From Rhodanobacter sp. (GTDB taxonomy: Bacteria > Pseudomonadota > Gammaproteobacteria > Xanthomonadales > Rhodanobacteraceae): 35,654 bases of DNA. The position numbers and the translations under genes are program-made. The notes below the pieces were generated by a model that was not told the DNA's origin, made no database searches, and saw only the letters and a list, made by a program, of their open reading frames with translations. Of the stretch, positions 3,850-35,654 are shown in pieces. Numbering within the stretch: position 1 is the stretch's first letter; every line of letters begins with the position of its first letter. Location: contig DZCM01000011.1 of the NCBI GenBank assembly GCA_022730295.1, positions 1-35,654 on the forward strand, in the 5' to 3' direction.

Positions 3850-4686
3850 TCACCCCAACGCCTGCGCCATCCACACCAGGCTTGCCATGCGCCCGCTGTG
3901 GGCGGCGTCACGGCGAAACGAATGCAGGCGCGGATCAGTGAAGGTGTCGAATCCGCCCCCGAACATGCGCGTCACGCCTGCCGCATGCAGGCGCTGGCGC
4001 GCGAGCGCGTAGAGATCACACTGCCAATGTCCGGTCCGGGCCGCGGTGAACGCTGCTGCGGCAGTTGCTTCATGCGCGATGAATGCACCGCGTACTTCAT
4101 CTCCAACCTCATATGACTTCGCGGCAATCGCCGGGCCGAGCCATGCGAGTATGTTCGCGCGCGGCGTATGCATCGCAGTCACCGTGGCGTCGAGCACGCC
4201 AGCGACCAGCCCACGCCAACCCGCATGCGCGGCGGCAATTTCGGATCCGTCATCAGCGCAGAACAACACCGGCAGGCAGTCGGCAGTCTGGATCGCCAGC
4301 ACCACGCCGGGAGTGCGGGTTACGGCGGCATCAGCTTCCCCGGTCGCATCGCCCCCATCCACCCTGCGGGCACCTTCCCCTGCAAAAGGGGCCGGGTTGG
4401 GGCGGGGAGAATCAACGTGAACCACTTGCGTACCATGCACCTGCCGCAGCCAACGCGGTACCGAGGGCAACGTTAGCGCGGCTTGCAGGAACTCGCGATT
4501 CCGTGCGACGGCGTCCGGATCATCGCCACAATGCACGCCGACGTTGAACCCGAACGGTGAGTTCTGCGCCAATCCCGGTCCTGCACGCGTGGTGACCACC
4601 GCACGCACATTGGCCGGCGCAGGCCAAACGGGCACCAACCATGAGGACGCCACGTCAGCCACGGCCAGTTTCCGCACCCGCGACAT
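3850..4686 (-). CDS. pgeF: PgeF/YfiH multicopper-oxidase-like (laccase domain) protein
   Basis: Member of the YfiH/LACC1 family (DUF152), 278 residues. In E. coli the protein is a peptidoglycan editing factor that limits misincorporation of amino acids into muropeptides; homologues act on purine nucleosides. The three zinc ligands are present: His84 in VHGTQV, Cys137 in TADCLPV and His154 in AHAGWRG. The C-terminus SFRRDAAHSGRMASLVW matches the family signature, although the preceding GGxxCT is GGGFDT. Residues about 93-112 (PNPAPFAGEGARRVDGG) are an insertion encoded by a GC-rich palindromic repeat, listed separately. The gene follows rluD and overlaps it by 32 bp if the ATG at 4686 is used; a GTG at 4653, just after the rluD stop, is an alternative start. 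The rluD-pgeF pairing is conserved in proteobacteria. Confidence 0.93.
   Translation of the reverse strand: MSRVRKLAVADVASSWLVPVWPAPANVRAVVTTRAGPGLAQNSPFGFNVGVHCGDDPDAVARNREFLQAALTLPSVPRWLRQVHGTQVVHVDSPRPNPAPFAGEGARRVDGGDATGEADAAVTRTPGVVLAIQTADCLPVLFCADDGSEIAAAHAGWRGLVAGVLDATVTAMHTPRANILAWLGPAIAAKSYEVGDEVRGAFIAHEATAAAAFTAARTGHWQCDLYALARQRLHAAGVTRMFGGGFDTFTDPRLHSFRRDAAHSGRMASLVWMAQALG
4351..4408. repeat. Palindromic repeat carried in frame inside pgeF
   Basis: The plus strand reads GCCCCCATCC, ACCCTGCGGG, CACCTTCCCC, TGCAAAAGGGG and then a G-rich arm. The first 34 bases match 30 of 34 bases of the element at 18637-18670 in ileS. Read on the coding strand it adds about 18 residues between VVHVDS and the conserved EADA segment, where the E. 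coli protein has only a short loop. The reading frame stays open across it. Confidence 0.75.
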
Positions 4687-9077: not shown

Positions 9078-9084
9078 ATTGTAC

Positions 9085-9109
9085 GGTCGCGGCTGCCGCT
9101 GCTCCTACA
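9085..9109 (-). repeat. REP-like unit overlapping the sucD stop codon
   Basis: Read on the minus strand this is TGTAGGAGCAGCGGCAGCCG followed by CGACC, a variant of the unit seen at 9999, 23021 and 30311. The TAG at its left end is the stop codon of sucD (9107-9105). Confidence 0.7.
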
Positions 9110-9974: not shown

Positions 9975-9998
9975 GACAACCCCTTCATTCAATTATTT

Positions 9999-10071
9999 TG
10001 CAGGAGCGGCGGAAGCCGCGATTCACGTGGCAAAATTGCGCATATCGGTCGCGGCTGCCGCCGCTCCTGCA
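9999..10071. repeat. Inverted pair of REP-like units between sucC and sucD
   Basis: A plus-oriented unit at 9999-10021 (core CAGGAGCGGCGGAAGCCGCG) and a minus-oriented unit at 10047-10071 form a 73-bp inverted pair with about 25 bp between them, resembling a bacterial interspersed mosaic element. It occupies almost the whole sucC-sucD spacer and would form a long hairpin in the sucCD transcript. Confidence 0.7.
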
Positions 10072-16617: not shown

Positions 16618-19572
16618 TCAGAACCAGCGCCGATTCTCGCCCGCACCCTGCCCTTCAAACGCGGCCACATTCTCGACGCAGCGCCCGCACAATTCGGGAT
16701 GCTCGGCGTGCTGACCGACATCAACACGATGGTGCCAGCAACGGATGCACTTCGGCGCATCGCTGACACTGGCTGACACCCACACGTTGGCACCTTCGAG
16801 TTCGCTCAGCACCGCATCGGCAGGTGCGTCACCTGCATCGAGGCGCAAGTCCGAGGCGATGAAGAAGAAACGCAATTCGCCGGCGACCTGTTTGTAGCGA
16901 TCGGCCAGTGCCGCATCGACATGGAGGGTGACGGTGGCGTCCAGCGATGAGCCGATCTTGCCGTCCTTGCGCATACCTTCGAGCACGCGCGCGGCGGTTT
17001 CGCGGATGCTGAGCAGATCGGTCCACCAGCGCCGTTGTTCCGGCGTGTTCTGGGTTTCGCGCAGGCCCTGGTACCAGGTCTGGTACAACACCGACGCATC
17101 ACGCACGCTGAAACCACCCCGCACCTCGGTGGGCACGTGCGTCTGGTGCGGCATCGCCTGCCACACTTCTTCGGCGGTGAATGCAAATAGGGGCGCCAGC
17201 CAGCGCACCATCGCCTCAAGGATCCGGAACATCGCCGACTGCGCGCTGCGACGGCCGTGGCTGGCCGCCGGCATCGTGTACAAACGGTCCTTGGTGATGT
17301 CCAGATACAGCGCGCCCATCTCGTTGGTGCAGAAGTTCTGCACGCGCTGCACGACTTCCGGGAAGTCGTAGCGCGCGTACGCGGCGACCACGGCATCTTG
17401 TACATCCGCCGCGCAACGCACCGCCCACTGGTCGAGCAGCAGGCAGCGATCGATGGTCAGGAGATCCGAAGCCGGGCTGAACCCATCAAGATTGCCGAGC
17501 AGGAACCGGCAGGTGTTGCGGATGCGGCGGTAACTGTCGGCGACGCGCTTGAGGATTTCATCCGACAGCGCCATCTCGTTGCGGTAGTCGGCCGAGGCGA
17601 TCCACAGGCGCAGGATGTCCGCGCCGTAGCGGTTCATGACGTCCTGCGGCTCGATGCCGTTGCCGAGCGACTTCGACATCTTGCGCCCCTGCGCGTCGAC
17701 GGTGAAGCCGTGGGTCAACACTTCGTCGAACGGCGCGTGGCCGTGGATTGCGCACGCGGTGATCAGCGATGAATTGAACCAGCCGCGATGCTGGTCCGAG
17801 CCTTCCAGATACATCACCTGATCGCCCGGATTGCGTGCGAGTTCGGGACGCTGGTCAAGCACGCAGTAATGCGTGACGCCCGAATCGAACCACACATCGA
17901 GGATGTCGTTGACTTTGTCGTAGTCCTTGGCTTCATCGCCAAGCAAATCGGCAAGCTCGAGCGCGTACCACGCATCGACACCACCGGTCTCGACACGCTT
18001 GGCGACTTCGCGCAACAACTCGGGGCTGCGTGGATGCGGCTCGCCGGTCACCTTGTGTACGGCCAGCGCGATCGGCACGCCCCAAGTGCGCTGGCGGCTG
18101 ATGCACCAATCCGGGCGGCCTTCCACCATGTTGTTGATGCGCTCCTCGCCCCACGAGGGATAGAACTTCACGTCGTGGTGGATCGCGTGCAGTGCGCTGG
18201 CACGCAGGCCCTGCGCATCCATCGCGATGAACCACTGCGGCGTGGTGCGGAACGCCACCGGCGTACGATGCCGCCAGCAGTGCGGATAGCTGTGGGTGAT
18301 CGTCGCCTTGGCGAGCAGTACACCGCGCTCGCGCAGCAGCTCGATCACCGTGTCGTTGGCCTTCCAGATGTACTGGCCTTCGAAGATCGGCGTGCCCGGC
18401 AAATACACGCCGTTGGGACCGACCGGGTTCAGCACGTTGGCCGGCGTCGTCGCGACGATGCCGTAGCGCTGGCCAATCGTGAAGTCCTCGGCGCCGTGGC
18501 CGGGCGCGGTATGCACCGCACCGGTGCCATCCTCGGCTGATACGTGTTCGCCGACCAGGATCGGAACTTCGCGCTCGTAGAACGGGTGCTTCAACTTCAG
18601 GCCTTCCAGCGCGCCGCCCTTGGCGCGGCCGAGCACGCCCCCATCCGGCCTGCGGCCACCTTCCCCCGCAGGCGGGGGAAGGGAATCATTCTGGTAGCGG
18701 GCAAGCACCTTGTCCGCCAACGCCTCGGCGACTACCAGCAGCACGCGCTTGCCCGCGCGTGGCGGGCCTTCCACCAGCACGTAGTCAAAATCCGGCCCCA
18801 GCGACACCGCCATGCTGGCCGGCAGTGTCCACGGCGTGGTGGTCCAGATCGGCACCGCGACGATCACGCCAGCATCGACCGCGACACCGAACTTCACCGC
18901 CAGCGCCTGCGGATCCAGCGCGTCATACGCGACGTCAATCGCGGGCGACTGCTTTTCCTGATATTCGATCTCGGCCTCGGCCAGCGCCGAGCCGCAATCG
19001 AAGCACCAATGCACCGGCTTGAAACCACGCGCCACATGGCCATTGGCGTACACGTCGGCCAGCGCGCGCAGGATGTCGGCCTCATACTTGAAGTCCATCG
19101 TGCGATAGGGCTTTTCCCAATCACCGAGTACGCCGAGCCGCTTGAAATCCTTGCGCTGCACGTCGATCTGCTGTGCGGCGTACTCACGGCAGTGCTGGCG
19201 GAAAGACTCCGCGTCGACCTTCTGCCCGACCTTGCCGTATTTCTTTTCGACCGCGATCTCGATCGGCAGGCCATGGCAATCCCAGCCCGGCACATAGGGC
19301 GAGCGGAACCCGGCCATCAATTTGGAGCGCACCACGAGGTCCTTGAGGATCTTGTTGACCGCGTGGCCAAGATGGATCTTGCCGTTTGCATAAGGCGGAC
19401 CATCGTGCAGGATGAACGCACTTTCGCGCTGCGCGGTGTGGGCCTGCAGGCCGGCATAGCGCTGCGCGGACTCCCATTCGGCCAGCATCACCGGCTCGCG
19501 TTTGGCGAGGTCGGCCTTCATCGCAAAGTTGGTGACAGGCAGGTTGATGGTTTGCTTGTAGTCGCGGCTCAC
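16618..19572 (-). CDS. ileS: Isoleucyl-tRNA synthetase
   Basis: Class Ia aminoacyl-tRNA synthetase of 984 residues, somewhat longer than E. coli IleS (938). The HIGH motif is HLGH in [16 protein letters not shown] near residue 65, the editing (CP1) domain contains the conserved [12 protein letters not shown], and KMSKSLGN lies near residue 628. A C-terminal zinc site has the Cys pairs CIRC and CGRC. Residues about 296-312 ([16 protein letters not shown]) are an insertion from a palindromic repeat in the CP1 domain. The start overlaps the ribF stop by 4 bp (ATGA), so the two are translationally coupled. The usual downstream partner lspA is absent here; ileS is instead the last gene of its strand, converging with the DUF1704 gene. 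Confidence 0.97.
18637..18684. repeat. Palindromic repeat carried in frame inside ileS
   Basis: The plus strand reads GCCCCCATCC, GGCCTGCGGC, CACCTTCCCC, then CGCAGGCGGGGGAAGG, which includes a perfect hairpin CTTCCCCCGC...GCGGGGGAAG. It encodes about 16 extra residues on the coding strand between RYQN and VLGRAKGG, where E. coli IleS has no equivalent. The frame is preserved. It matches the element in pgeF at 30 of 34 bases. Confidence 0.8.
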
Positions 19573-23005: not shown

Positions 23006-23020
23006 GGCCATACGCCCGCC

Positions 23021-23045
23021 TGCAGGAGCGGCGGAAGCCGCGACC
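23021..23045 (+). repeat. REP-like unit downstream of fdxA
   Basis: TGCAGGAGCGGCGGAAGCCG followed by CGACC, a single plus-oriented copy of the same unit found in the sucC-sucD gap and after the LpxO-like gene, with no inverted partner nearby. Confidence 0.7.
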
Positions 23046-29379: not shown

Positions 29380-30315
29380 ATGCTGCTCACAATCCGCCTC
29401 GCGGTCCTCGCCATCATCCTGTTGTTCCTGCTGTGCGCGTTGATCGTGCACCTGCGTTCGCACGTGCGTTTGAAACTCAGCCGGCAACTTGCCGGCCACG
29501 CCACGGTGTTCGCGCCGTACAACTTGATGATGTACGCGTTTTCCGCGGTGCCGGCCGTCGCCTTCCCTGATCGCAAGCGCTTTACTGATGTCGACGTCTT
29601 GCGCGACAACTGGGAAACGATCCGCGACGAGGCCGCGGGCCTTTCCGACCAGGGTCACATTCGGGACGCACTGAAGGACACCGATGCCAGCTTCTCATCC
29701 TTCATCAAGGCTGGCTGGAAGCGGTTTTACGTGAAGTGGTACGGCGATCCGCTGCCCTCGGCGCAGGCGTTGTGCCCCAAGACCGTGGAGCTGGTGAATC
29801 GCATCCCGCGAGTGAAGGCGGCGATGTTCGCGCTGCTGCCGCCGGGCGTCACCTTGAACCTGCATCGCGATCCGTTCGCGGGTTCGCTGCGCTACCACCT
29901 GGGCCTGATGACACCCAACTCGCGCGACTGCCACATCTTTGTCGACGGCCAGGAATATTTTTGGCGTGACGGCGAGGATGTGATATTCGACGAAACCTGC
30001 GCGCACTGGGTCGAGAACAAGACCGACCAGACCCGGGTCATCCTGCTGTGCGACCTTGAGCGGCCGTTGCGTTCACGCCTGGTCGCGTGGATCAACCACC
30101 ACGTCAGCAACTTCATGGGCGCGATCACCGCCTCGCCCAATCAGGCATCGGAGCCAACCGGCGCGATCAACCGCCTGTTCTCCGCCATGCGCCAGCGCCG
30201 CGAGAAGAGCCGCAGCTTCAAACGGCGTCACCACAAGCTGTTCAAGACCATGAAAGTTGCGGGCAGCGTGGTGCTGCTGTGGGTATTGCTGCTGGCGCCC
30301 TGGCCCATTTTGTAG
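29380..30315 (+). CDS. LpxO-like Fe(II)/2-oxoglutarate dioxygenase
   Basis: Aspartyl/asparaginyl beta-hydroxylase family protein, 311 residues, with one transmembrane segment at the N-terminus (residues 3-24) and another at the C-terminus (about 290-308). Alignment by eye with AspH places the iron ligands at His162 (NLHRDPF) and His209 (CAHWVENK) and the 2-oxoglutarate Arg at 219 (DQTRVIL), the AspH spacing of 46-47 and 10 residues. Membrane-bound members include LpxO, which 2-hydroxylates lipid A acyl chains at the inner membrane; that role is likely but not certain. The stop TAG (30313-30315) is part of a REP-like repeat. Confidence 0.88.
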   Translation: MLLTIRLAVLAIILLFLLCALIVHLRSHVRLKLSRQLAGHATVFAPYNLMMYAFSAVPAVAFPDRKRFTDVDVLRDNWETIRDEAAGLSDQGHIRDALKDTDASFSSFIKAGWKRFYVKWYGDPLPSAQALCPKTVELVNRIPRVKAAMFALLPPGVTLNLHRDPFAGSLRYHLGLMTPNSRDCHIFVDGQEYFWRDGEDVIFDETCAHWVENKTDQTRVILLCDLERPLRSRLVAWINHHVSNFMGAITASPNQASEPTGAINRLFSAMRQRREKSRSFKRRHHKLFKTMKVAGSVVLLWVLLLAPWPIL

Positions 30316-30376
30316 GAACGGCGGAAGCCGCGACCGTTCCCGTTCAAGGCCAGCGGTCGCGGCTTCCGTCGCGCCT
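30311..30376. repeat. Inverted REP-like pair; supplies a stop codon
   Basis: A plus-oriented unit at 30311-30335 (TGTAGGAACGGCGGAAGCCG then CGACC) and a minus-oriented unit at 30355-30376 form an inverted pair. The TAG inside the first unit is the stop codon of the LpxO-like gene. The pair would fold into a long hairpin between that gene and the convergent isocitrate dehydrogenase gene and may act as a bidirectional transcript end. Confidence 0.7.
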
Positions 30377-30440
30377 TCAATTCCCCGCCAGGATCTGCCG
30401 GGTCAGCGGCAAGCACCCACGCACATGCGCCCGCCAAACG

Positions 30441-35423: not shown

Positions 35424-35478
35424 CTCAATCCCCCTTCGTTCCGAAGGGGGAAGAAAAACGCGGCAACACACTTCACCT
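35424..35478. repeat. 55-bp direct repeat, copy 1, with palindromic core
   Basis: Identical over 55 bases to 35600-35654. The core is a perfect hairpin CCCCCTTCG-TTC-CGAAGGGGG (35430-35450), followed by AAGAAAAACGCGGCAACACA. Beyond it, 35479-35520 carries two further small palindromes (CCTTCC-GAA-GGAAGG and CGCGCC-GCA-GGCGCG). This copy lies between lpxH and the convergent partial gene. Confidence 0.9.
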
Positions 35479-35545: not shown

Positions 35546-35654
35546 CTACGCAACCGCGTCGATGGCAGCGCGGAGGCGATCAACCCCGACGATTTCAAGC
35601 TCAATCCCCCTTCGTTCCGAAGGGGGAAGAAAAACGCGGCAACACACTTCACCT
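35546..35654 (-). CDS. C-terminal fragment of an unidentified protein (3' end only)
   Basis: On the minus strand the frame is open from the window edge to TAG at 35548-35546. Its last 17 residues, LEIVGVDRLRAAIDAVA, read like a genuine protein end and loosely resemble the C-terminus of RadA/Lon-type proteins (G-[IM]-E-[VI]-x-x-V-x-x-L-x-x-A-[IL]). The preceding 18 codons are the second copy of the 55-bp repeat, in frame (GEVCCRVFLPPSERRGIE). Most of the gene lies outside the window, so identity is a guess. Confidence 0.4.
   Translation of the reverse strand, partial: GEVCCRVFLPPSERRGIELEIVGVDRLRAAIDAVA
35600..35654. repeat. 55-bp direct repeat, copy 2, cut by the window edge
   Basis: Second identical copy, 176 bp from the first and in the same orientation. 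It reads through in frame as the upstream part of the minus-strand partial gene. The copy may continue past the window. Confidence 0.9.

Follow-up and report, generated by a model that had tools for sequence, protein, structure and literature searches.

REPIN and BIME elements are short hairpins moved by RAYT proteins, and they are classically extragenic. Palindromes inserted in frame into genes are, in the sections of the literature consulted here, the mark of the Rickettsia palindromic elements (RPEs; PMC2229807, PMC10969869), whose length is given there as 105–146 bp (PMC2229807) or ~150 bp (PMC10969869). The accessible part of Di Nocera and others (2013; PMC3733652) describes GTAG and CGTC REPs, palindromes of 20–40 bp that occur inside the ORFs of many species, including tRNA synthetases of Xanthomonas oryzae and recB of two Xanthomonas. 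According to the same part of that paper, more than half occur as dimers or groups, they may be neutral in linkers and loops, and the GTAG families are associated with transposase genes (PMC3733652). In addition, excerpts of three papers name ERIC, Yersinia RU-2 and Coxiella QMITE as non-autonomous repeats that can fuse in frame to genes (PMC2229807, PMC10969869, PMC5896051).

We describe an in-frame palindromic repeat in ileS of a Rhodanobacter genome, located in a window of 35,654 nucleotides, which is the whole stretch of DNA analysed here. The source organism belongs to the same order as Xanthomonas. The repeat is probably a REP-like, non-autonomous palindromic element of ~47–48 nt that has been dispersed to non-homologous sites and is tolerated as a translated spacer. 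A sequence-only reading of the window had named no standard description of such an element for this group. No description of the element was found, which agrees with that reading; it is qualified by intragenic REPs, those of Xanthomonas included, which had already been described in the available text of PMC3733652. Among the open-licence PMC literature, as far as its texts were accessible, neither the element sequence nor intragenic palindromes in this group beyond PMC3733652 were described, and searches of that text with four 12-base pieces of the element (one of the genus form and three of the form in other genomes) returned only unrelated titles. Nor was any account found there of such a repeat occurring frequently in the group's core enzymes.

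The host gene, ileS, lies on the minus strand (16618–19572) and encodes an isoleucyl-tRNA synthetase of 984 aa. Its frame stays open through the insert, and the protein keeps HLGH and KMSKS, which we take to be the IleS signatures. The element falls at residues ~297–312, presumably within the CP1 editing domain. The repeat had first been noticed at 18637–18684 on the plus strand, in frame in ileS, and this observation was confirmed: the intact copy of a two-hairpin element spans 18638–18684 (+), antisense and in frame, and scores 80.3 bits with the covariance model. Small hairpin 1 (18647–18657, +) has a 4-bp stem and a 3-nt loop; large hairpin 2 (18659–18682, +) is a near-perfect palindrome with a 10-bp stem and a 4-nt loop. 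A 43-base pattern of the repeat (at most three mismatches) matched once in the window and not at all in 100 dinucleotide shuffles. The window genome (G000; 2.27 Mb) is 81.6% complete and divided into 110 contigs, a state that might suggest that the insert arose in the assembly or binning of a single metagenome-derived genome. However, a related insert was present at the same site in the single-contig G014, and also in G011 and G013, and copies of the element were found in named isolates such as Stenotrophomonas humi, which leaves an artefact next to impossible.

Folded as ssDNA, the ileS copy formed two hairpins at −15.6 kcal/mol, and 11 of 200 shuffles folded equally well. The z-score (−1.75) was unexceptional and is weak proof of the hairpins; the strong evidence for the element is its repetition and covariation, which were used instead. 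The repeat is also GC-rich. The second pair of hairpin 1 was swapped from GC to CG in three of ten own-genome copies. Across 91 distinct copies from four other genomes, changes on both sides occurred at 8 of the 14 stem pairs, more than in any of 500 shuffles, in an alignment that was fitted to the covariance model and thus leans towards the structure. The unit is ~47–48 nt long with sharp ends, because conservation fell to near background outside model positions 3–49 among 78 genus copies; position 2 was also conserved in 61 copies from other genomes. No terminal inverted repeats were seen by eye in the conserved ~47-nt unit, and no target-site duplication was readable from the diverged alleles. 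At gathering thresholds, Rfam detected only tRNA in the window and no family for the element.

Other repeats were also observed in the window. A REP-like family unrelated to the element, consisting of TGCAGGAGCGGCGGAAGCCGCGA and its inverse, was located at 9084–9109, 9995–10071, 23017–23045 and 30307–30380, partly as inverted pairs, and it recalls the classical GTAG-type REPs. At the window end, an exact 55-nt direct repeat (35424–35478 and 35600–35654, 176 nt apart) contained a small palindrome.

Further genomic copies of the core were found in the own genome, the genus and the order. A 29-base pattern with at most three mismatches matched 12 times in the own genome, compared with none for the reversed pattern. 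The covariance model, built from 10 own-genome copies, matched in 15 of the 16 genus genomes, with 9 to 110 matches per positive genome (61 in G000); these are upper figures, since the palindromic hairpin 2 echoes on the other strand, and short echo hits made up ~90 of the 255 matches in the genus match list. No match was obtained in the genus genome G002. Across the order, where at most 29 candidates per genome were scored, matches were present in 55 of 200 genomes, G000 among them, and in 32 of 70 genera. Ten of the 14 genomes reached via named records had matches, at most 150 candidates per genome being scored for these and for the genus; Stenotrophomonas humi gave 89 and Rhodanobacter sp. 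FW104-R8 gave 26, and there were none in Stenotrophomonas sp. VV52, S. rhizophila DE0483, Luteimonas sp. BLCC-B24 and Lysobacterales Bin_30_4_2. Luteimonas terrae (G069) had 139 matches, of which the listed ones measured 41–42 nt, shorter than the model, and perhaps form a separate subfamily. The match numbers of the order and of the named genomes likewise contain other-strand echoes of hairpin 2.

IleS was found in all 16 genus genomes, and the site of the element (site 1) was filled in four of them (G000, G011, G013 and G014). The empty site held a six-residue native loop in 11 genomes and a longer, divergent loop without the repeat in G008, and the insert of G013 was split by another short repeat. 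The insert was also absent from 16 aligned outside IleS sequences, chosen from 80 loci that had been obtained with a query alignment containing one mis-framed row (L044, 24% identity). A non-repeat loop of equal length was thus not found in the relatives, neither in the 12 unfilled genus genomes nor in the 16 outside sequences. The addition had been put at about 16 residues. The element does comprise 16 codons, but the net gain of IleS is ~13 residues, because 19 residues stand where the empty alleles have ~6 and the native loop was lost. Two PDB alignments, both of one IleRS, showed a gap at the insert. In an AlphaFold2 model of the window IleS based on 17 sequences (mean pLDDT 78.4), residues 295–310, between a helix (283–296) and a strand (313–318), had pLDDT below 50, and the model predicts a disordered loop at the insert; six other segments also fell below 50, so that the insert does not stand out by its low confidence. 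Elsewhere in the window IleS, a segment of ~13 residues (~811–823) stood opposite a gap in the 16 outside IleS and had low pLDDT; no element match was obtained at these residues.

One strong IleS match was found in each of G000 and the single-contig G014, both with the insert, and the one strong ValS match of G014 carried the element. This suggests that the insert-bearing IleS and ValS probably serve in G014. On a tree of the IleS, ValS and pgeF proteins, with 2 of 14 inner branches well supported, the filled state of IleS needs at least four changes. A single origin of the filled allele is possible, given this weakly supported tree; at IleS, descent with losses, or recombination spreading the allele, is no less possible than repeated insertion. 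Here, one explanation is that the filled allele goes back to an ancient insertion that was passed on within the genus by descent or by homologous recombination, the element itself having ceased to move. The four filled alleles have the same orientation, frame and boundaries, and their presence on the tree is patchy, as this explanation supposes. However, the G000 copy retains a perfect large hairpin, genic copies are paired as well as intergenic ones (paired fraction 0.988, n = 31, vs. 0.974, n = 49; p 0.57), and the differing orientations or frames of the copies in the PurL, M20-peptidase and LysC-LysA loops of different species need several events, so that we regard an immobile relic as unlikely, if not implausible.

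About 8 residues downstream of the element site, a second site of IleS carried inserts of different make-up in G009, G011 and G015. These inserts (L048, L053 and L055) belong to another repeat type, e.g., PLPLQWEGGRGDGVG, PTPTQTLPLRGRAS and PSPQPLSRGERG. A further short repeat, ~AIHGQELRG, was observed inside or beside palindromic inserts in the IleS of G013 (L042) and G015 (L055/L058) and in the ValS of G005 and G012, and the inserts thus seem to be insertion targets themselves.

The same repeat had been reported in pgeF, where it is real and degenerate. The gene (3850–4686, minus strand) encodes a Cu-oxidase_4/laccase-domain protein of 278 aa, and the copy (4350–4410, plus strand) lies antisense and in frame, encoding PAPFAGEGARRVDGG. 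It matches the initial part of the ileS copy at 28 of 31 bases, scores 42.5 bits with the covariance model (E 3.8e-7) and is read in the same frame as the ileS copy (AGEGARRVDGG); its large hairpin has decayed, as judged by eye. The pgeF gene was present in 15 genus genomes. Model-supported copies at this loop occurred also in G001 and G014, the loop was short in G005, G007, G009 and G012, and the other genomes had different repeat-like peptides (by eye). In ValS, the linker that follows WNAARFVLMN was occupied by model-supported copies in G000, G004 and G014 and, as judged by eye, by repeat-like peptides of other kinds in at least G001, G005, G006, G007, G008, G012 and G013, whereas it was short in G009 and G010; the G002 locus ends before the site, and G003 gave no ValS match. 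In the PurL, LysC-LysA and M20-peptidase loops, copies stood in differing orientations or frames between species, so that several insertion events are needed. This points to repeated insertion at sites that appear to be tolerant.

Copies inside and between genes were counted from a comparison of the coding signal in the two flanks of each element, with a test that was trained on genus genes and used thresholds set by hand; “coding” meant one frame on both sides, and such copies are in frame by definition. In the genus, 40 of 102 clusters lay inside one coding frame (37 by a strict rule) and fell into 19 homology groups, one of which joins two genes via a lipoyl domain; the clusters drew on 113 of the best 150 matches (of 255) and represent the best-scoring part rather than a census. 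By loose rules, 54 of the best 150 matches were within one spanning frame, four short ones being skipped. Genic copies occur, in frame, in many genes other than the two first noticed. Random positions were called coding in 0.57–0.93 of cases per genome, and in 0.76 to 0.83 in three outside genomes. Thus the test probably under-calls coding, and the contrast between the genus and the outside genomes given below is not due to a blind test. The coding share of the genus (39%) was below the random-position expectation, which would fit a frequent loss of insertions that land in genes.

Four further clusters had different coding frames on the two sides and were candidates for frame-breaking genic copies. 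The flanking ORFs belonged to unrelated Pfam families (DUF559 and NAD synthase; dihydrofolate reductase and a NUDIX/ThiE protein; a hydrolase and acyl-CoA dehydrogenase; an aminotransferase and EPSP synthase), which marks these clusters as gene boundaries. No frame-breaking copy within a gene was seen among the 102 genus clusters. Pfam hits were obtained for 19 of 20 spanning genus ORFs (none for L185) and for five of six further ones; the matches flanked or crossed the insert in 18 of the 20, and in L210 (Trp/Tyr type) the match lay only before it. With gene names beyond the Pfam labels being our own reading, the 19 insert-bearing ORFs with hits among those 20 comprised ValS, an HrpA-like helicase, two LysC-LysA fusions, two M24 aminopeptidases, Lhr, lipoamide dehydrogenase, PurL, the Trp/Tyr-type tRNA synthetase, two M20 peptidases, GcvP, two LeuS, an E2 subunit, a metallo-beta-lactamase-fold protein, an ABC1/UbiB-like kinase and a Mur ligase.

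By the same coding test, only 3 of 57 clusters in the outside genomes were inside genes, vs. 40 of 102 in the genus (Fisher p 1.6e-6). The three were distributed as 1 of 20 in S. humi, 2 of 23 in G214 and 0 of 14 in G048, the latter two genomes carrying the label of a different family within the order. In G061, which is the nearest outside relative, 2 of 8 clusters were inside genes, both in DNA-methylase-like ORFs; this genome was left out of the test, and with it the values are 5 of 65 and p 4.7e-6. Pfam supported two of these copies, that of S. humi in methionine synthase and one of G214 in an ABC protein, each read in the SLPP frame, and gave no hit for the other G214 coding cluster (L327). 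In the genus the element is thus often within genes, whereas the outside genomes examined hold it almost only between genes.

All six frames of the ileS copy were stop-free, and among 80 genus copies each of the six frames was open in 71 to 80. Through hairpin 2, LPPxAGEG is read in one frame on each strand. Genic copies used several frames and both orientations, and the antisense SLPPxAGEGxRRxDGG frame was favoured, accounting for 12 of 28 gene-group/frame combinations in the genus (binomial p 0.001, assuming equal and independent frames). In the ileS copy this frame was the most hydrophilic of the six, and it lacked C, W, F, Y, M, I and V. Third-codon-position changes made up 21 of 36 in the genic antisense copies vs. 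41 of 106 in the intergenic copies (p 0.052), and selection on the peptide by codon position is borderline. This slight excess would accord with a functional insert, in which the hairpin acts on the mRNA through pausing or stability or the peptide has a selected role. However, the element entered unrelated proteins in several frames and orientations, and 12 of the 16 genomes do without it at the same IleS site, so that a function of the insert seems very unlikely.

The mobiliser is the weak step of the mechanism. The element might be a REP of the GTAG type that depends on a RAYT (HUH tyrosine transposase) for its movement, given its similar size class and hairpin structure, its inverted pairs in several loci, and the presence of PF01797 matches in 7 of the 16 genus genomes (E <= 0.001). 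However, no conserved GTAG or CGTC was found in the element, in the 30 nt upstream or in the 40 nt downstream of it (78 genus and 61 outside copies). The stretches around the 13 PF01797 (RAYT/TnpA) matches of the genus contained no model match, and a linked RAYT was rejected as the mobiliser on this ground. The match numbers per genome, echoes included, did not follow the PF01797 counts (Spearman 0.10, p 0.72), and G013, which had the most model matches, had no PF01797 match. Because neither a tag nor a linked transposase was found, the element was not filed as a GTAG/CGTC REP, and such an origin is rather improbable.

We return to a dispersed element that is probably tolerated as a translated spacer. 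That the repeat is mobile, translated and tolerated in a loop, as the sequence-only reading proposed, is supported by the copies, the presence/absence pattern and the predicted disorder; from these we infer mobility by transposition, translation and near-neutrality. A trans-acting activity would place copies into DNA, most plausibly as an ssDNA hairpin. An insertion within a gene would often leave the frame open, because the unit has ~16 codons and nearly every copy lacks stop codons in each of the six frames. Purifying selection would then keep in-frame copies in loops and linkers, mostly in hydrophilic frames and above all as SLPPxAGEGxRRxDGG. In ileS, the peptide would replace the short native CP1 loop between helix and strand, with the enzyme tolerating a disordered loop, and the same loops would be hit again in different species. 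With more doubt than conviction, we also suggest that this tag-less element without a linked RAYT may be a habitual colonist of coding DNA in the genus: a 16-codon unit, open in six frames and giving the same LPPxAGEG in both orientations, that time and again adds disordered spacers to the same loops in core enzymes such as the tRNA synthetases, perhaps with the help of a novel mobiliser and of a host that is unusually tolerant.

Discussion of translated palindromic inserts has mostly treated them as a peculiarity of the Rickettsiales, together with scattered intragenic REPs elsewhere. Here, among many species of one genus, the same core genes exist side by side in an empty and a filled form, and the same loops hold more than one repeat type. 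These alleles, together with the contrast between the genus and the outside genomes, open three questions to testing: by what means REP-like palindromes move when no RAYT is linked to them, at what frequency core enzymes gain new peptide segments by such inserts, and what a host needs to tolerate translated inserts.

Compared with the described systems, the element shares with REPIN and BIME the short hairpins, the many copies and the frequent inverted pairs; those are classically extragenic, and no RAYT link was found for the present element. The MITEs (ERIC, RU-2 and QMITE) are likewise non-autonomous and, in the excerpts available, can form in-frame coding fusions. However, they are described there as ~100–200 bp or more, most with terminal inverted repeats, whereas the present element has two internal hairpins and no evident terminal repeats. 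The GTAG and CGTC REPs also occur as palindromes inside ORFs of known function, tRNA synthetases included, but they are tagged and the GTAG ones are transposase-associated, neither of which applies here; this comparison covers the accessible text of PMC3733652, and some overlap with the entries of its table of intragenic REPs is possible. The likeness proposed at the outset, that to the Rickettsia palindromic elements, was borne out by an in-frame palindrome in unrelated coding genes. Like the RPEs and the Wolbachia palindromic elements, the repeat lies in frame in many unrelated conserved genes and also between genes. As they have been described, the RPEs are longer and belong to the Rickettsiales, whereas the present element has ~47 nt, two hairpins and gammaproteobacterial hosts. 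It works like the RPEs but is probably not a member of them, being set apart by its length and host group.
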